Part shown: positions 20,660-30,551 of the stretch, piece by piece
Layout: every line of letters begins with the position of its first letter
Position numbering within the stretch: position 1 is the first letter of the stretch
From: Candidatus Sumerlaeota bacterium
GTDB taxonomy: Bacteria; Sumerlaeota; Sumerlaeia; JABWBI01
Assembly: GCA_016928695.1 (NCBI GenBank)
Contig: JAFGKF010000362.1
Location: forward strand, 1-33,121
Length of the DNA: 33,121 bases
Reading direction: 5' to 3'
Position numbers and translations under genes: made by a program
The notes under the pieces: model-generated
The model's database searches: none
What the model saw: only the letters and a program-made list of their open reading frames with translations
What the model was told of the DNA's origin: nothing

Positions 20660-23365
<2,706 letters not shown>

Positions 23366-24223: not shown

Positions 24224-25654
24224 ATGTCTGTCCCCCGAGATCATGTCGCGGTGCTGGGCGCCGGGGTCTGTGGCCTCGCCGCCGCCTGGGAGCTCCTGCG
24301 TTCGGGCGCGGCCCAGCGGGTGACGGTTTTGGAGGCCGAGGATCGCCCCGGAGGAATGGCGCGGTCGGTCCACGACCCCTCGGGGCTCCAGGCCGACCTG
24401 GGGCCGCACCGCATCCACACCGAGATCGAGGAGATCGACGCCCTGCTCGGCGAGCTGTGCGATCGGGAGATGCACTGGGTCGAGCGGCGCAGCGCCATGT
24501 GGGTCGAGGGGCAGTGGGTGAATTATCCCTTCCGTCTGGGTGGGGTGCTGAGGCTGTTCGGCCCCATCGAGTTCTGCCGGATGGGATTCAGCGCGCTCTG
24601 GGCCAAGACGAGTGGTCTCTGGCGCCCGCGCCCCGCGAACTTCGAAGAGCACATGCGGCGCGCCTTCGGCGCACGCGTCTGGAATCGTGTCCTGAGGCCC
24701 TATTCCACCAAAGTCTGGAAGACCGACCCGAGCGGGCTCTCGGTCAAGGCCGCCGAGGTCCGTGTCTCAGCGGGAAGCATGGTGAAAATGGCCAAGCGTC
24801 TGCTGATGGGCGGGCGCGAGAGACGGGGGCAGGAGACGGCGCTGAAGCGCTTCCGCTATCTCACCGGCGGAGTTGAGAGTCTCGTGAAACGTCTCGGGGA
24901 GAGGGTGCGTGGGGCCGGGGGCGTGATCGAGTGCGGGGCGAGGGTCGAGGAGATGATCTGTGAGGGGGAGGGGCGCTGGCGCGTGCGCCACTCGCGGGGC
25001 GAGACGGAGGCCAATGCGGTTCTCTCAACGATTCCCGTGACGCAGATGACCCCGATGCTCCGGGGAATCGTCGGGGAGTCTGCGCCGGAGGAAAATCTGG
25101 CGGCTCTCGAGTATTTGGCCATCCATCTGGTCTTTCTCGTCATCAATCGGCCGCAGGCGACGCCGAATCATTGGCTCTACTTCCCCGGTGAAGACATCTG
25201 TTTCAACAGGGGTTACGAGGCCAAGCACTTCTGGGAAGCCGAGGCCGCCCCCGCGGATCAGACCTTGCTCTGCCTGGAGATCACGGCGCGGCCCCACACG
25301 CCCCTGCACACCGCGGGCGAGAGGGAGCTGATTGAACGGACCCAGGGGGATCTGTCCCGCATCGGCTTGGTCACGGCCGGCGAGATCGAAAAGAGCTTTG
25401 TGGTGACTCTGCCGTTCGGGTATCCTCTCTACGATCGCCTCTCGGATGAGAACCTGCGGCGTGTGCTCGAGCACCTGGCGGGGTGGCCGGGACTGATCGT
25501 GACGGGTCGCCAGGGACTGTTCAGCCACAACAACATGGATCACTCGATGCACATGGGTCTGGAGGCCGCGCGGGCCCTGGCCGCGGGTCCGGAGGGCGTC
25601 GCAGGCTTCTACGCCCGCGCTGACCGGCTCCGGCATCACCGGATCGTGGATTGA
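24224..25654 (+). CDS. FAD-dependent oxidoreductase (protoporphyrinogen oxidase/UDP-galactopyranose mutase-like)
   Basis: A 476-residue flavoprotein with an N-terminal FAD-binding Rossmann fold, VAVLGAGVCGLAAAWELLR, ending in the acidic residue of VTVLEAEDRPGGMARS. This GG-doublet layout, plus DLGPHRIHTEIEEID, is shared by amine oxidase-like, protoporphyrinogen oxidase-like and UGM-like proteins. A C-terminal FAD contact is visible at VTGRQGLFSHNNMDHSMHMGLEAA. Substrate is unknown. No strong Shine-Dalgarno precedes the ATG at 24224; a weak TTGACG-N17-TGTGGT pair (24187-24215) would give a very short leader. It overlaps or abuts the first radical SAM gene and is probably co-expressed with both, so the three likely act in one pathway. 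Confidence 0.82.
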   Translation: MSVPRDHVAVLGAGVCGLAAAWELLRSGAAQRVTVLEAEDRPGGMARSVHDPSGLQADLGPHRIHTEIEEIDALLGELCDREMHWVERRSAMWVEGQWVNYPFRLGGVLRLFGPIEFCRMGFSALWAKTSGLWRPRPANFEEHMRRAFGARVWNRVLRPYSTKVWKTDPSGLSVKAAEVRVSAGSMVKMAKRLLMGGRERRGQETALKRFRYLTGGVESLVKRLGERVRGAGGVIECGARVEEMICEGEGRWRVRHSRGETEANAVLSTIPVTQMTPMLRGIVGESAPEENLAALEYLAIHLVFLVINRPQATPNHWLYFPGEDICFNRGYEAKHFWEAEAAPADQTLLCLEITARPHTPLHTAGERELIERTQGDLSRIGLVTAGEIEKSFVVTLPFGYPLYDRLSDENLRRVLEHLAGWPGLIVTGRQGLFSHNNMDHSMHMGLEAARALAAGPEGVAGFYARADRLRHHRIVD

Positions 25655-25659
25655 GAGCA

Positions 25660-27078
25660 GTGAAAGTCCTTCTTGTCGTCCCGCCCACCGGCAAGCTGAT
25701 CCGCGAGGATCGATGCCAGACCCCGATCGACGATCTGAAGACGGTCGCGCTCCGCCCACCGGTCGAGCTGCTCTACGCCGCCTCGTCGTTCGAGGCGGGT
25801 GGCGCGGAGTGTCGCGTGCGCGATTATCCGGCGCACGACCTGGGCTGGGAGGCGTTCGACGCCGATCTGCTCGAGTGGCGACCCGACGCGGTGGTGATCT
25901 CGATCACCTGCCCGACGATGGAGGCCGACCTGTGCACGGCGGCGCGGGCCAAGGAGCTGCTTCCGGAGTGCATGACGCTGGCGAAGGGGGCGCTGTTCGA
26001 GGCGCAGGACCTGAGGCCGATCAGCGAGTGCGAGGCGCTCGACGGCGTGCTGCGCGGGGAGCATGAGCACGCCTGCCGCGAGATCGCCGAGGGACGGCCA
26101 CTGAACGAGATCCAGAGTGTCTCGTGGCGCAACGGGAGCCGTGTCGTTCACAACCCCGATCGCCCGTTCGAGGAGAACCTGGACGCGATCCCCTTCCCCG
26201 CGCGGCATCTGGTCGACAATCGCCTCTACCGCCGCCCCGACACCGGGGCGCTGCAGACGACCCTTGTCGCGAACCGCGGCTGCCCCCACACGTGCATCTA
26301 CTGCCTGGCGCAGCAGGTGGCGGGCGCGAAGCACCGCCGCCGCAGCCCGGAGAACATCGCGGCGGAGATCCGCGAGTGCATCGAGCACCACGGCATCCGC
26401 AGCTTCCTGTTCCGGTCCGACCTCTTCACGGCCAAGAGGAGTTGGGTGATGGATCTCTGCGACCATCTGGTGGAGACGGGGCTCGCGGACGAGATCGACT
26501 GGTCGTGCAACTCGCGGGTCGACACGATCGATGAGGAGATGCTGACGGCGATGAGGCGCGCGGGATGCTTCATGATCGCGTACGGCGTCGAGAGCGGCGA
26601 CCAGGAGATCCTCGACCGCCTCCAGAAGCGCGCCACCGTCGAGCAGGCGCACCGCGCGGTGAAGCTGACGAAAGCCGCGGGCATCAAGGTCTCCGCCTAC
26701 TTCCTGCTCGGGCTGCCCTGGGACACGCGCGAGACGATCGACGATCAGATCCGCTTCGCCTGTGAGATCGACCCCGACGTCGCCGAGTTCTTCTACGTCT
26801 ACCCCTTCCCCGGCACGGAGCTGCACCGCATCGCGGTCGAGGAGGGCCTGATCGAGCCCGACGAGCTCCCCGTCGAGGCCTACGGCCAGCCCGCGTTCCC
26901 CTCGAAGACGCTCTCGCGCGAGGACCTGCGCCGCGAGCGGCTTCGGGCGCTGCGCCGCTACTACCTGCGCCCCCGTTACATTCTGAGGACGCTGGCGAGC
27001 GCGCCGAGCCCGAGGGTGTTTTTCAACTACCTGCGCTTCGGTTTTTCGCAGCTGGGCGCGATGCTGAGGAGCCGCTGA
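25660..27078 (+). CDS. B12-binding-type radical SAM protein (first of tandem pair)
   Basis: A 472-residue radical SAM protein with an N-terminal cobalamin-binding-like domain (KVLLVVPPTGKL, PPVELLYAASSFEAGG, PDAVVISITCPTM), no obvious DxHxxG cobalamin ligand, and a TIM-barrel core. The [4Fe-4S] cluster cysteines are C208, C212 and C215 in CPHTCIYC; GVESGDQEILDRLQK and FLLGLPWDT are family features. The C-terminus carries a basic ALRRYYLRPRYILRTLAS element that is typical of this group. I chose GTG 25660 (MKVLLVV); a TTG at 25651 overlaps the upstream stop by four bases. Family members methylate or rearrange carbon skeletons, for example in lipids, hopanoids and pigments. The target here is unknown. 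Confidence 0.88.
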   Translation: MKVLLVVPPTGKLIREDRCQTPIDDLKTVALRPPVELLYAASSFEAGGAECRVRDYPAHDLGWEAFDADLLEWRPDAVVISITCPTMEADLCTAARAKELLPECMTLAKGALFEAQDLRPISECEALDGVLRGEHEHACREIAEGRPLNEIQSVSWRNGSRVVHNPDRPFEENLDAIPFPARHLVDNRLYRRPDTGALQTTLVANRGCPHTCIYCLAQQVAGAKHRRRSPENIAAEIRECIEHHGIRSFLFRSDLFTAKRSWVMDLCDHLVETGLADEIDWSCNSRVDTIDEEMLTAMRRAGCFMIAYGVESGDQEILDRLQKRATVEQAHRAVKLTKAAGIKVSAYFLLGLPWDTRETIDDQIRFACEIDPDVAEFFYVYPFPGTELHRIAVEEGLIEPDELPVEAYGQPAFPSKTLSREDLRRERLRALRRYYLRPRYILRTLASAPSPRVFFNYLRFGFSQLGAMLRSR

Positions 27079-27079
27079 G

Positions 27080-28495
27080 ATGCCCTCGCCCGCCCCCGTC
27101 AAAAAGGTCCTGCTGCTCAACCCCCCGGGTGCGGAGACGTATCTGCGCGACTACTACTGCAGCCACACGTCGAAGGCGACGTACATCTACTGCCCCTACG
27201 ACCTCTTCGCGCAGTCCGGCTGGCTGGCGACGCGGTTCGAGGTCGAGGCGATCGATGCCATCGCCGAGAGACTCTCCCCCGACGAGACGCTGCGCCGCAT
27301 CGGCGAGAGTGGGTGCGACACCATCCTGTTTCTCACCGGCGCCGTCTCATGGGTCGAGGACTTCGACTTCATGGCGCGCGTGGTGCGCGAGGTGGGGCGC
27401 CCCCTGCGCATCTTCGGAAACGGCGACATCCTCTGGGAGGAGCGCGACCGCTTCATCGAGCGACACGACTGGCTCGAGGGGGTGATGACGGACTTCACGA
27501 CCCGCGACCTGCTCGATCACCTCTCGGGCGATCACGCGGGCGAGCCCGTGCCGAACATCTACTGCCGCGTCGGCGACCGCATCGTGAAGGGGGGGATGCT
27601 CCGGCGAAAGGGCAAGTGGTCGATGCCGCGGCCACTCCATGAGATCTTCCCGATCCGAAAGTACCGGGTGCCCCACGGGCGTCATCTGCCCTACACCGAG
27701 ATCCTGACCGACTACGGCTGCGTCTACCAGTGCACCTACTGCATCGGGGGCGACCTGGGATTCCGGGTGCGCGACATCGACAACGTGATGGAGGAGCTGC
27801 TCTTCGTGCGCGACCGTCTGGGGGTGCGCGAGGTGCGGCTCAAGGACCTGACCTTCGGTGCGGTGAGGCGCCACGCCGACGCGCTGCTCGACCGGATGAT
27901 CTCCGACCGGCTGAACATGTCGTGGATCTGCCTGAGCCGCCCGAGCGTGCTGTCGGGCGATCTCCTCGAGAAGATGCGCGAGGCGGGGTGCCACACGATC
28001 CAGATGGGGATCGAGAGCGCGGACGCGGAGTTCATCAACCGCTACAAGAAGTCGATCAAGACGACGAAGATCCATGAGATCCTCGATGAGTGCCGGAGGG
28101 TGGGCATCCGGGTGCTGGGGCACTTTATCCTCGGACTGCCCGGCGACACGCCTGAGAAGATCGAGCAGACGATTCAGTACGCGATCGACCTCGATCCGGC
28201 GTTCGCCTCGTTCAACATCGCGATGCCCCGCCTGGGGACGCGTTTCCGGCGCGAGGCGCTGAGCCGCGGGCTGATCACCGAGGACACAAATCTGCTGGAC
28301 AACTCCATCTCCTATCCCATTTTGGAGACCGATGAGCTCAGCCGCGAGGCGCTGTGGAGACTGCGCAACCGTGCCATCCGGCGCTTCCATCTGCGCCCCG
28401 GGTACATCCTCCGCCGACTGCTCGGCGTGCGCTCCGCCTACGAGCTCAGGACGCTTTTCACCGAGGGATGGGCTCTGCTGCGCTCGACGACCTGA
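27080..28495 (+). CDS. B12-binding-type radical SAM protein (second of tandem pair)
   Basis: A 471-residue relative of the preceding protein, starting one base after its stop. The N-terminal domain (KKVLLLNPPGAETYLRDYYCS to RIFGNGDILWEE) is shorter in recognisable cobalamin-domain features. The radical SAM cluster is C214, C218 and C221 in CVYQCTYC, with GIESADAEFINRYKK and FILGLPGDTPEKIEQTI downstream. It shares the C-terminal pattern RRFHLRPGYILRRLLG with its neighbour. The two are not close copies in the N-terminal half, so this looks like an old duplication or a paired two-step enzyme set. With the FAD oxidoreductase it suggests a dedicated biosynthetic route. The product is not predictable from the sequence. 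Confidence 0.88.
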   Translation: MPSPAPVKKVLLLNPPGAETYLRDYYCSHTSKATYIYCPYDLFAQSGWLATRFEVEAIDAIAERLSPDETLRRIGESGCDTILFLTGAVSWVEDFDFMARVVREVGRPLRIFGNGDILWEERDRFIERHDWLEGVMTDFTTRDLLDHLSGDHAGEPVPNIYCRVGDRIVKGGMLRRKGKWSMPRPLHEIFPIRKYRVPHGRHLPYTEILTDYGCVYQCTYCIGGDLGFRVRDIDNVMEELLFVRDRLGVREVRLKDLTFGAVRRHADALLDRMISDRLNMSWICLSRPSVLSGDLLEKMREAGCHTIQMGIESADAEFINRYKKSIKTTKIHEILDECRRVGIRVLGHFILGLPGDTPEKIEQTIQYAIDLDPAFASFNIAMPRLGTRFRREALSRGLITEDTNLLDNSISYPILETDELSREALWRLRNRAIRRFHLRPGYILRRLLGVRSAYELRTLFTEGWALLRSTT

Positions 28496-28540: not shown

Positions 28541-29929
28541 ATGGGAGCACGCATGCGTGCCCTTCGCCTGATCCCTGCGCTGGCCGCAGCCCTGAGCCTG
28601 CTGATCGCCTGCGGGCCGCCCACGCCCGAGGAGCTGCTCGAGCAGGCCGAGATCGAGCTGACCCAGAACGGCGACGCCACCGAGGCGGAGCTGATTCTCC
28701 GCCGCCTGCTGAGCACCCCGGACCTCGATCCGGAGATCGCCGTCCAGGCCCACATGCTCAGGGCCGGCAACTTTGCCCGGGGCCTCAACCAGATCGACCG
28801 TGCGCGCGCGGAGCTCGAGGCGATCGTCGATCTGGTGGGAGTGAACAGCGAGCAGGGGCTCCAGGCGGCCATGATCCTGGCCACCTCCCACCTGGATGAG
28901 GGCATCGATGCCTACGACACGGAGATCGCGCGCCTGACAGCCGGGTTGCCCTCGAGCTCCGAGGAGGCCATGCAGGTCTCGCTCCATCGGTGGATGGTCA
29001 TCACGAACATCAATGCGACCAATGAGATCTGGGAGACGCACGGTCCGACGATCGACCGGGTCCTGGCCGCCGAGACTCTGCGCGAGGATGAGAAGCGCGA
29101 TCTCGTGCTCCGCATCACGCTCCAGGCGGTGGAGCAGGCCAGCCTGCGGGGCGAGTTCCAGACTGCGATCGAGCTCCTCGAGAGATTCATCGAGAGATTC
29201 CCGGGCAGTGATCCCGCGGAGTTCATGCCTTTCCAGATCGCCGGCCTCTGGCAACAGGCCGGTGAGACGGAGCGGGCCGAGAGCACCGCGGCGGCGGCCT
29301 TCACGCGACTCGACGAGCGCGTGGCGGCAGCCCAGACCTCGGCGGAGGTGGCCATCCTCACCGTCATGCGGGGCGATGCCTATGTGATGCTCGAGGATCA
29401 CATCGCCGCGGGGGAGGCCTATGAGTATGCCTTCAACAACTTCCTCGACTACCCGCGTCGACCCGAGGCGATGCTCAGCTGGTCAGTGACGCTCGCCGAG
29501 CAGGGCAGCACCGAGCGGGCGCGCGAGCTGGCCACCCGCCTGGCTCTGGAGTACCCCAACTCCAATTACGATCTGGCGGCCAACCGGGTGATCCAGCGCA
29601 TTGACCAGGGGCTGTATTCACCTGAACCTCCCCCCGCCGTCGAGGAGGTGGAGGCGCCTGCCCCCGCCTCGCCGGAGGAGATCGCCGAGCCGGTCTCCCC
29701 CGAGCCCATGATGGAGGAGGAGGTCGCCACCCCCGAGACCAACATGGAGGCGGTGCCGATCGAGGAGGTCTCTGCTCCCGAGGCCCCTGAGGGCATCTCC
29801 GAGGAGGAGACCGCCGAGGAGACCGCTGCGCCCGTCACCCCTGAGTCGGTCATGGAGGGGGAGCCCGTCGAGGCGAGCCCTGAGATCGAAGTGGTCGAGG
29901 AGCCGGTCTCTCCGGAGAGCGCTGACTGA
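28541..29929 (+). CDS. Lipoprotein with TPR-like helical repeats and an acidic Pro/Glu tail
   Basis: A 462-residue predicted lipoprotein. The N-terminus MGARMRALRLIPALAAALSLLIAC ends in a lipobox (L-I-A-C24), so a mature lipidated Cys is expected. Residues about 30-360 are helical with tetratricopeptide-like spacing (EELLEQAEIELTQNGDATEAELILRRLL, QTAIELLERFIERFPGSDPAEFMPFQIAGLW), a fold used for protein contacts. The last 100 residues are almost all Glu, Pro, Ala, Val and Ser, with recurring blocks such as EPVSPEPMMEEEV and APVTPESVMEGEPV. AGAGAGG lies nine bases before ATG 28541. It sits 45 bases after the radical SAM pair and seven before hisH. Asn or Ser at +2 is absent (Gly), leaving outer-membrane sorting likely but unproven. 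Confidence 0.82.
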   Translation: MGARMRALRLIPALAAALSLLIACGPPTPEELLEQAEIELTQNGDATEAELILRRLLSTPDLDPEIAVQAHMLRAGNFARGLNQIDRARAELEAIVDLVGVNSEQGLQAAMILATSHLDEGIDAYDTEIARLTAGLPSSSEEAMQVSLHRWMVITNINATNEIWETHGPTIDRVLAAETLREDEKRDLVLRITLQAVEQASLRGEFQTAIELLERFIERFPGSDPAEFMPFQIAGLWQQAGETERAESTAAAAFTRLDERVAAAQTSAEVAILTVMRGDAYVMLEDHIAAGEAYEYAFNNFLDYPRRPEAMLSWSVTLAEQGSTERARELATRLALEYPNSNYDLAANRVIQRIDQGLYSPEPPPAVEEVEAPAPASPEEIAEPVSPEPMMEEEVATPETNMEAVPIEEVSAPEAPEGISEEETAEETAAPVTPESVMEGEPVEASPEIEVVEEPVSPESAD

Positions 29930-29936
29930 GGATCTC

Positions 29937-30551
29937 ATGATCGCCGTTGTCGACTATGGCCTGGGCAACCTCCACTCCGTCTGCAAGGCGCTCGAGCGTG
30001 TGGCGGGCGAGGAGGAGGTCTGCCTGACCGAGGACCCGTCGGTTGTGGACCGCGCCGAGCGCGTCGTGGTCCCCGGTGTCGGGGCGTTCGGCGACACGAT
30101 GCAGGGGCTCCAGCGGCGTGGCATGGTGCCGGCCCTGCATCGGGTTCTCGGGTCGGGGCGTCCCTTTCTCGGAATCTGCATGGGGATGCAGGCGCTGTTC
30201 GCCGCCAGCGAGGAGTCCCCCGGGGTTGAGGGGCTCGGATTTTTCCCCGGCACGCTGCGCCGCTTCCCCCATGCGCCGGGCCTCAAGGTGCCCCACATGG
30301 GGTGGAATGCGCTGAGTTTTCCCGGACGTGTGCCCCTCTTCGAGGGACTCGACGAGGGGACCCACGTCTATTTCGTGCACTCGTACTTCGCCGATCTGTC
30401 ACAGCCGGAGATCGTGGCGGCCTCGAGCGAGCACGGCCTGCGCTTCGCGGCGGCGGTGGCGAGGCCACCCGTCTACGGGACGCAGTTTCACCCGGAGAAG
30501 AGTCAGCGGGTGGGGCTGAGGATTCTCGAGAACTTCGTCTCGCTGCGCTGA
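29937..30551 (+). CDS. hisH: Imidazole glycerol phosphate synthase glutaminase subunit HisH
   Basis: A 204-residue class I glutamine amidotransferase subunit that supplies ammonia to HisF in histidine and purine-linked AICAR formation. The catalytic triad is C81 in FLGICMGMQ, H185 and E187 in FHPEKS. DYGLGNLHSVCKALE, VVPGVGAFGDTM and VPHMGWN are HisH signatures. Length is typical. No hisF, hisA or other his gene is in the window, so it is detached from a his operon. It follows the lipoprotein gene by seven bases and converges on the HD-GYP gene with a four-base gap. Some hisH homologues serve other amidation reactions, but the HisH motifs here are standard. Confidence 0.96.
   Translation: MIAVVDYGLGNLHSVCKALERVAGEEEVCLTEDPSVVDRAERVVVPGVGAFGDTMQGLQRRGMVPALHRVLGSGRPFLGICMGMQALFAASEESPGVEGLGFFPGTLRRFPHAPGLKVPHMGWNALSFPGRVPLFEGLDEGTHVYFVHSYFADLSQPEIVAASSEHGLRFAAAVARPPVYGTQFHPEKSQRVGLRILENFVSLR

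Follow-up and report, generated by a model that had tools for sequence, protein, structure and literature searches.

The window (the whole stretch of 33,121 nucleotides analyzed here, from the genome of a Candidatus Sumerlaeota bacterium, G000) carries on its plus strand the genes FAD, R1, and R2, encoding a flavoprotein and two radical SAM proteins, followed on the same strand by two further genes:

24224-25654, plus strand: FAD, a flavoprotein of 476 aa with an amine-oxidase fold, assigned by Pfam, NCBIfam, a profile match, and a residue map to the branch resembling UDP-galactopyranose mutase (PRK07208).
25651-27078, plus strand: R1, an HpnJ/AprD4-like radical SAM protein of 475 aa with a predicted N-terminal cobalamin-type Rossmann domain.
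27080-28495, plus strand: R2, a second radical SAM protein of 471 aa belonging to a distinct clade, the N-terminal domain of which is divergent in sequence and has the same predicted fold as that of R1.
28541-29929, plus strand: a TPR-repeat lipoprotein-like gene identified by TPR matches, 45 bases 3' of R2, a possible accessory part.
29937-30551, plus strand: a gene lying 3' of the TPR gene, GATase by domain search, which we take to be hisH.

The tight coupling of the three genes on one strand, as described in the sequence-only reading, was confirmed: the stop codon of FAD and the TTG start of R1 overlap by 4 bases, and a single base separates R1 from R2. An alternative GTG start of R1 is present at 25660 and is the same as the start in G001, a genome of the same family, and a good ribosome-binding sequence was read by eye 5' of the R2 start. 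No terminator-like site was found in the interval between R2 and the TPR gene, and a scan for promoters and terminators gave none above shuffled expectation. A TPR gene also lies 3' of R2 in G001, G003, and G167; since TPR proteins are common, the association with the set is weak. The divergent side of FAD-R1-R2 carries obgE, along with two ribosomal protein genes that are presumably rplU and rpmA. A gene encoding an ArsP_1 permease-like protein (22844-23365 of the window), which covers the first 135 of the 294 profile positions and is either short or truncated, adjoins obgE.

Pfam assigns the FAD protein to Amino_oxidase/NAD_binding_8. The cut-off of the NCBIfam model PRK07208.1-4 (NF005548), which is 389 bits, was reached neither by the window protein (232.6 bits) nor by its homolog in G182 (316.2 bits), a genome of the same domain from outside the phylum. 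A profile built from 21 FAD sequences matched the eukaryotic UDP-galactopyranose mutase (UGM) 4dsg over its full length (E 3.5e-44), and the active-site residues H63, Y104, W167, R182, Y317, R327, Y419, R447, and N457, the roles of which in UGM are those listed in Table 3 of PMC3624792, are invariant in all 21 sequences. Judged by the same table, the protein departs from UGM at Y453, which is replaced by His in 21/21, at N207, which is Leu or Val, and at the uracil contact Q107, which is Arg or Lys in most of the sequences: contacts to phosphate and flavin are kept, while those to the base and one to the sugar are altered. Because these three positions are changed, UDP-galactose is doubtful as the substrate of FAD. 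Matches from other UGM-like paralogs also carry Y317, R327, Y419, R447, and N457 in all 17 rows and R182 in 15 of them (one G182 sequence, found at L156 and L173, being counted twice), and these residues therefore mark the superfamily rather than the FAD-R1-R2 pathway. The bacterial UGM model TIGR00031 gave only 27.8 bits as against a cut-off of 303.75. From this combination of profile match and residues, FAD is classified as a member of the UGM branch.

In the case of the radical SAM proteins, Pfam recognizes Radical_SAM in R1, with a B12-binding match lying slightly under the cut-off (31.8 vs. 32.1 bits), and Radical_SAM alone in R2, without any B12-binding match. The CxxxCxxC cluster motif is kept in all the aligned sequences (23/23 for R1 and 10/10 for R2), which places both proteins in the radical SAM superfamily. 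The two can be aligned only over the core and the C-terminal tail, i.e., residues 179-474 of R1 and 181-469 of R2 (33.6% over 298 residues). The AlphaFold models (pLDDT 89.5 for R1 and 83.5 for R2) both gave AprD4 (6fd2_A) as the best Foldseek match over nearly the full chain (E 3.4e-27 and 1.8e-23, respectively; TM 0.77-0.81), followed by TsrM, MgmA, CysS, TokK, and OxsB. Since the R2 model aligns with AprD4 over almost its full length, the N-terminal part of R2 is predicted to be a divergent B12-type Rossmann domain and not a domain of another type. In the models, the N-terminal halves of R1 and R2 have a single cobalamin-type Rossmann fold in common, and on these predicted folds both proteins would belong to class B, the cobalamin-type radical SAM enzymes. 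The description of the two as proteins with similar C-terminal tails and different N-terminal domains thus holds for the sequences and fails for the fold, which is AprD4-like in both models, N-terminal domain included.

None of the curated models of radical SAM enzymes of known function that were scored reached its cut-off with R1 or R2. The best model for R1 was HpnJ (TIGR03471; 229.9 bits vs. 577.6), followed by BchE (TIGR02026; 158.3 vs. 481.35), and the AprD4 model NF033070 gave 144.6 bits with R1 and 70.2 with R2 vs. a cut-off of 500. HpnJ was also the best model for R2, with 148.7 bits and over the C-terminal half only; R2 gave 64.6 bits on BchE. The scores on the ladderane model TIGR04072 (cut-off 360) were 99.6 bits for R1 and 78.6 for R2. 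An Arg-(Glu/Asp)-x-x-Cys loop located after the first strand of the N-terminal domains, which are otherwise dissimilar, is invariant in both groups (R18-C22 in 23/23 R1 sequences and R23-C27 in 10/10 R2 sequences) and might possibly be an active-site or substrate loop. An R1-like paralog, R1b (G000:C145:9404-10801, L029), about 40-46% identical to R1, is present in most of the phylum genomes and in G182 and G167, the latter also being a genome of the same domain from outside the phylum; R1b in G182 adjoins a TPR lipoprotein-like gene (L159:10367-11638).

R1 was identified at 620 bits or more in 32 of the 40 phylum genomes. FAD, searched for with the window protein, scored at least 196 bits in 34 of them, and a gene encoding a soluble, DPM-like glycosyltransferase, GT2, at least 329 bits in 34; these cuts were set after viewing the gaps in the scores, and several of the genomes are incomplete. 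FAD, R1, and GT2 are near-core genes of the phylum Sumerlaeota. Outside the phylum, R1 was found in 2 of 251 genomes (G182 and G167). R2 is present in 9 of the 40 phylum genomes and in 15 of the 251 others, among which R1 of ortholog grade occurs only in G182 and G167. When named genomes were scanned with the single R2 sequence, one close relative was obtained (78%), encoded on a contig from a Candidatus Sumerlaeia MAG, the other match being distant (23%).

FAD, R1, and R2 directly follow one another, always in this order, in G000, G001, and G003 (L025) and, outside the phylum, in G182 (L156); as G000 and G001 belong to one family, this amounts to three lineages. The complete series GT2-FAD-R1-R2 occurs in G003 and G182. 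R1 and R2 are adjacent in G167, where FAD lies elsewhere, G006 has R1-FAD only, and GT2-FAD is found without R1 alongside in G008, G009, G010, and G016, R2 being about 5 kb off in G010. Among the phylum genomes carrying both members of a pair, adjacency was observed in 4 of 28 for R1 and FAD, 3 of 8 for R1 and R2, and 5 of 30 for GT2 and FAD. The proteins of G182 are 31% (FAD), 51% (R1), and 41% (R2) identical to those of the window, and the repetition of the order outside the phylum at this level of divergence argues against chance. Homologs commonly found apart had been named as evidence against a three-gene set: they are indeed mostly apart in the phylum, yet the order recurs in G182, and FAD-R1-R2 is a recurrent arrangement rather than an obligate operon.

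In the phylogenetic trees, R1 and R2 form separate clades (15 rows with a support of 100/99, and 14 rows with 100/100, respectively). The sequences of G182, G167, and G039 stand apart from those of the window's class in both the R1 and R2 trees, the grouping of the three in the R2 tree having a support of only 81/55. In the FAD tree, which has several long branches, the orthologs of these three genomes and of the window's class form a clade of 25 rows (95/91), apart from the UGM-like paralogs. These placements fit an old gene set and not a recent transfer. The low identities and the R1 and R2 trees, which put G182 with G167 and G039, disfavor the view that the three genes were transferred recently between G182 and the lineage of the window.

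The GT2 of the window's genome lies outside the window (G000:C257:299-985). The gene immediately precedes FAD, in the same orientation, in the five phylum genomes mentioned above (G003, G008, G009, G010, and G016) and in G182, where the two genes overlap by 4 bases; clustering of the GT2 neighbors gave FAD at six loci and nothing else widely shared. The nearest PDB match of the protein is dolichol-phosphate mannose synthase (5mlz, 75 bits), followed by ArnC, and the nearest NCBIfam model is AglJ; the scores on the AglJ and ArnC models are about 112 bits or less, as against cut-offs of 325 and 529. It is 250-255 aa long, vs. 374 aa for the 5mlz chain and 322 aa for the ArnC chain. Since it resembles dolichyl- and undecaprenyl-phosphate sugar synthases, GT2 is likely to load a sugar onto polyprenyl phosphate. 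Among the nine outside genomes searched, ortholog-grade GT2 was found in G182 and G167 (430 and 405 bits, the others giving 258 or less), the two outside genomes in which R1 orthologs also occur.

In the outside genomes, R2 adjoins glycosyltransferases at several loci (GT2, GT4, GT9, and PMT-type): these account for at least about 11 of the 71 near genes (9 plus PMT and PMT_2) vs. at least 6 of 72 distant ones, which does not amount to a clear enrichment. The clustering of R1 neighbors yielded two genes in one family only, where R1 lies at L093, L098, and L101 (G019, G004, and G024) between what we take to be folE (GTP cyclohydrolase I) and metK (SAM synthetase). In one outside family (G072 and G217; L028:8188-9564 and L225:831-2297), R2 is followed by a gene that we presume to be cyclic 2,3-diphosphoglycerate-synthetase-like, without any Pfam match at L028, and by a LolA gene.

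The three genes had been described as a compact enzyme set with no recognized product, which is supported by the missed radical SAM cut-offs. No description of the FAD-R1-R2 set was found in our literature search, and the papers on Sumerlaeota that were searched for these terms mention neither radical SAM nor cobalamin. Based on homology and gene neighbors, we infer a lipid-linked sugar as the class of substrate, along with the type of reaction, and we propose, at somewhat less than even confidence, that FAD, R1, R2, and GT2 belong to one pathway remodeling a polyprenyl-linked sugar. GT2 would probably load the sugar onto polyprenyl phosphate. FAD would probably bind the sugar phosphate or diphosphate via a UGM-type Arg/Tyr clamp, and its reduced flavin would act on the anomeric carbon, as in UGM, so that the donor or the lipid-linked sugar adopts another ring form. 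R1, and then R2 where it is present, would generate a 5'-deoxyadenosyl radical abstracting a hydrogen from the sugar, and the outcome would be either dehydration, by analogy with AprD4, or a carbocycle produced by forming or contracting a ring, a reaction reported for HpnJ with hopanoid-bound glucosamine.

A common pathway is suggested by the order of FAD-R1-R2 kept in G000, G001, G003, and G182 and that of R1-R2 in G167, by the six genomes in which GT2 abuts FAD, by the near-core status of R1, FAD, and GT2, by the co-occurrence of GT2 and R1 in the same two of nine outside genomes, and by the trees, in which the FAD orthologs form one clade and R1 and R2 of G182, G167, and G039 are separated from those of the window's class. 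That the substrate might be a sugar is suggested by the UGM residues of FAD, the polyprenyl-type GT2, and the AprD4-like radical SAM models, together with statements in the available parts of two papers that non-methylating cobalamin-dependent radical SAM enzymes carry out ring formation or rearrangement (PMC13142503) and that HpnJ acts after glycosylation (PMC12583986). The sequence-only reading had left the field open between lipid, pigment, and glycan modification: a glycan or a lipid-linked sugar is likely, while a role in pigment synthesis is not borne out, since FAD lacks the pattern of protoporphyrinogen oxidase (PPO) and R1 lies far under the BchE cut-off.

Several observations go against the one-pathway reading and can be explained just by neighboring genes without any common pathway, where FAD, R1, and GT2 would have separate core jobs and R2 would be an accessory enzyme: in most genomes of the phylum the genes do not lie together, R2 is more widespread than R1 and often occurs without it, and glycosyltransferases are not clearly enriched near R2 relative to distant genes. 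GT2 is moreover absent from the window, the positions of Tyr453, N207, and Q107 differ from UGM while the conserved UGM residues also occur in paralogs, and the R1 neighbors in the one clustered family are folE and metK rather than glycan genes. We consider independent jobs fairly unlikely, however, in view of the same order in G182, the R1-R2 pair of G167, the GT2-FAD pairs in six genomes, and the presence of R1, FAD, and GT2 orthologs in the same two of the nine outside genomes searched for GT2. It is slightly less probable still that the genes modify hydrocarbon lipids, R1 and R2 forming rings or cross-links in fatty or isoprenoid chains, with FAD as a desaturase-like enzyme and GT2 adding a head group. 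Cobalamin-type radical SAM enzymes have been proposed for ladderane and GDGT rings in the part of PMC13142503 available, R1 gives a score on the ladderane model, and the amine-oxidase fold includes carotenoid desaturases; against this, R1 is far from the cut-off of that model and scores higher on HpnJ, BchE, and AprD4, and FAD retains the sugar-diphosphate residues of UGM (as listed in Table 3 of PMC3624792) and gives 51.5 as against 238 on CrtI.

Tetrapyrrole chemistry, with FAD as an enzyme of the PPO type and the radical SAM proteins as BchE-like cyclases, is very improbable and was rejected. The second rank of BchE among the R1 models and a weak FAD score on the PPO model TIGR00562 (50.1 bits) speak for it, but both cut-offs were missed (97.85 in the case of PPO), none of the five PPO controls has R182, Y317, R327, or Y419, and a separate PPO exceeding the cut-off is present in two of the carriers, G001 and G182. 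Hopanoid cyclitol ether synthesis by a true HpnJ is the most improbable of all: this model heads the list for both R1 and R2, yet their scores remain far below its cut-off, and squalene-hopene cyclase (TIGR01507) was detected in 0 of the 40 phylum genomes by a search which, in the control, gave a signal in 1 of 14 known genomes, that of B. subtilis, under the curated cut-off. A hopanoid substrate in these genomes is thus refuted unless a non-homologous cyclase exists.

Carried further, the reading of one pathway acting on a polyprenyl-linked sugar leads to a broader proposal, which we put forward tentatively and regard as rather unlikely as a whole: an undescribed pathway, core to the Sumerlaeota and present in at least two outside lineages, in which a sugar attached to polyprenyl phosphate would be rearranged to a carbocyclic or deoxygenated sugar of the cell surface by the combined action of GT2, a flavin mutase resembling UGM, and one or two radical enzymes of the AprD4/HpnJ type. 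If this were true, sugar or lipid chemistry undescribed so far would be a core trait of a whole candidate phylum, and UGM-type flavin chemistry and radical SAM sugar chemistry would be joined in one pathway. The GT2-FAD-R1-R2 series of G003 or G182 would provide defined genes for reconstitution, and a testable class of substrate would be available for R1 and R2, each representing a large and mostly unnamed group of B12-type radical SAM proteins, as well as for a clade of UGM-like flavoproteins.

Each of the components can be compared with a known system. HpnJ, the radical SAM enzyme of the hopanoid cyclitol ether, is the closest NCBIfam relative of R1 and R2; the pathway to which it belongs likewise combines a glycosyltransferase with a radical SAM enzyme acting on a lipid-bound sugar, HpnJ making the BHT cyclitol ether from glycosylated BHT according to the available part of PMC12583986. 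The present set differs in that R1 and R2 score less than half the curated value, the phylum lacks a detected squalene-hopene cyclase, and a UGM-like flavoenzyme occurs along with two radical SAM proteins. The radical SAM diol dehydratase AprD4 is the best PDB match of R1 and R2 in sequence as well as in fold and acts on a sugar, its substrate being paromamine and its partner the NADPH reductase AprD3, as stated in the part of PMC5461906 available; the overall fold is common to the R1 and R2 models, while both scores fall far short of the AprD4 cut-off. The FAD-adjoining GT2 has its nearest kin among dolichol-phosphate mannose synthase and the AglJ- and ArnC-type enzymes, from which it differs by its low scores, its shorter chain, and the location of its gene outside the window. 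Lastly, FAD resembles the eukaryotic UGMs (4dsg, 3ute) in its full-length profile match to 4dsg and in nine of the active-site residues compared, and it has a Pro ahead of the flavin His, as do KpUGM and DrUGM in Table 3 of PMC3624792; it differs from UGM at Tyr453, N207, and the uracil contacts and in its low score on the bacterial model.
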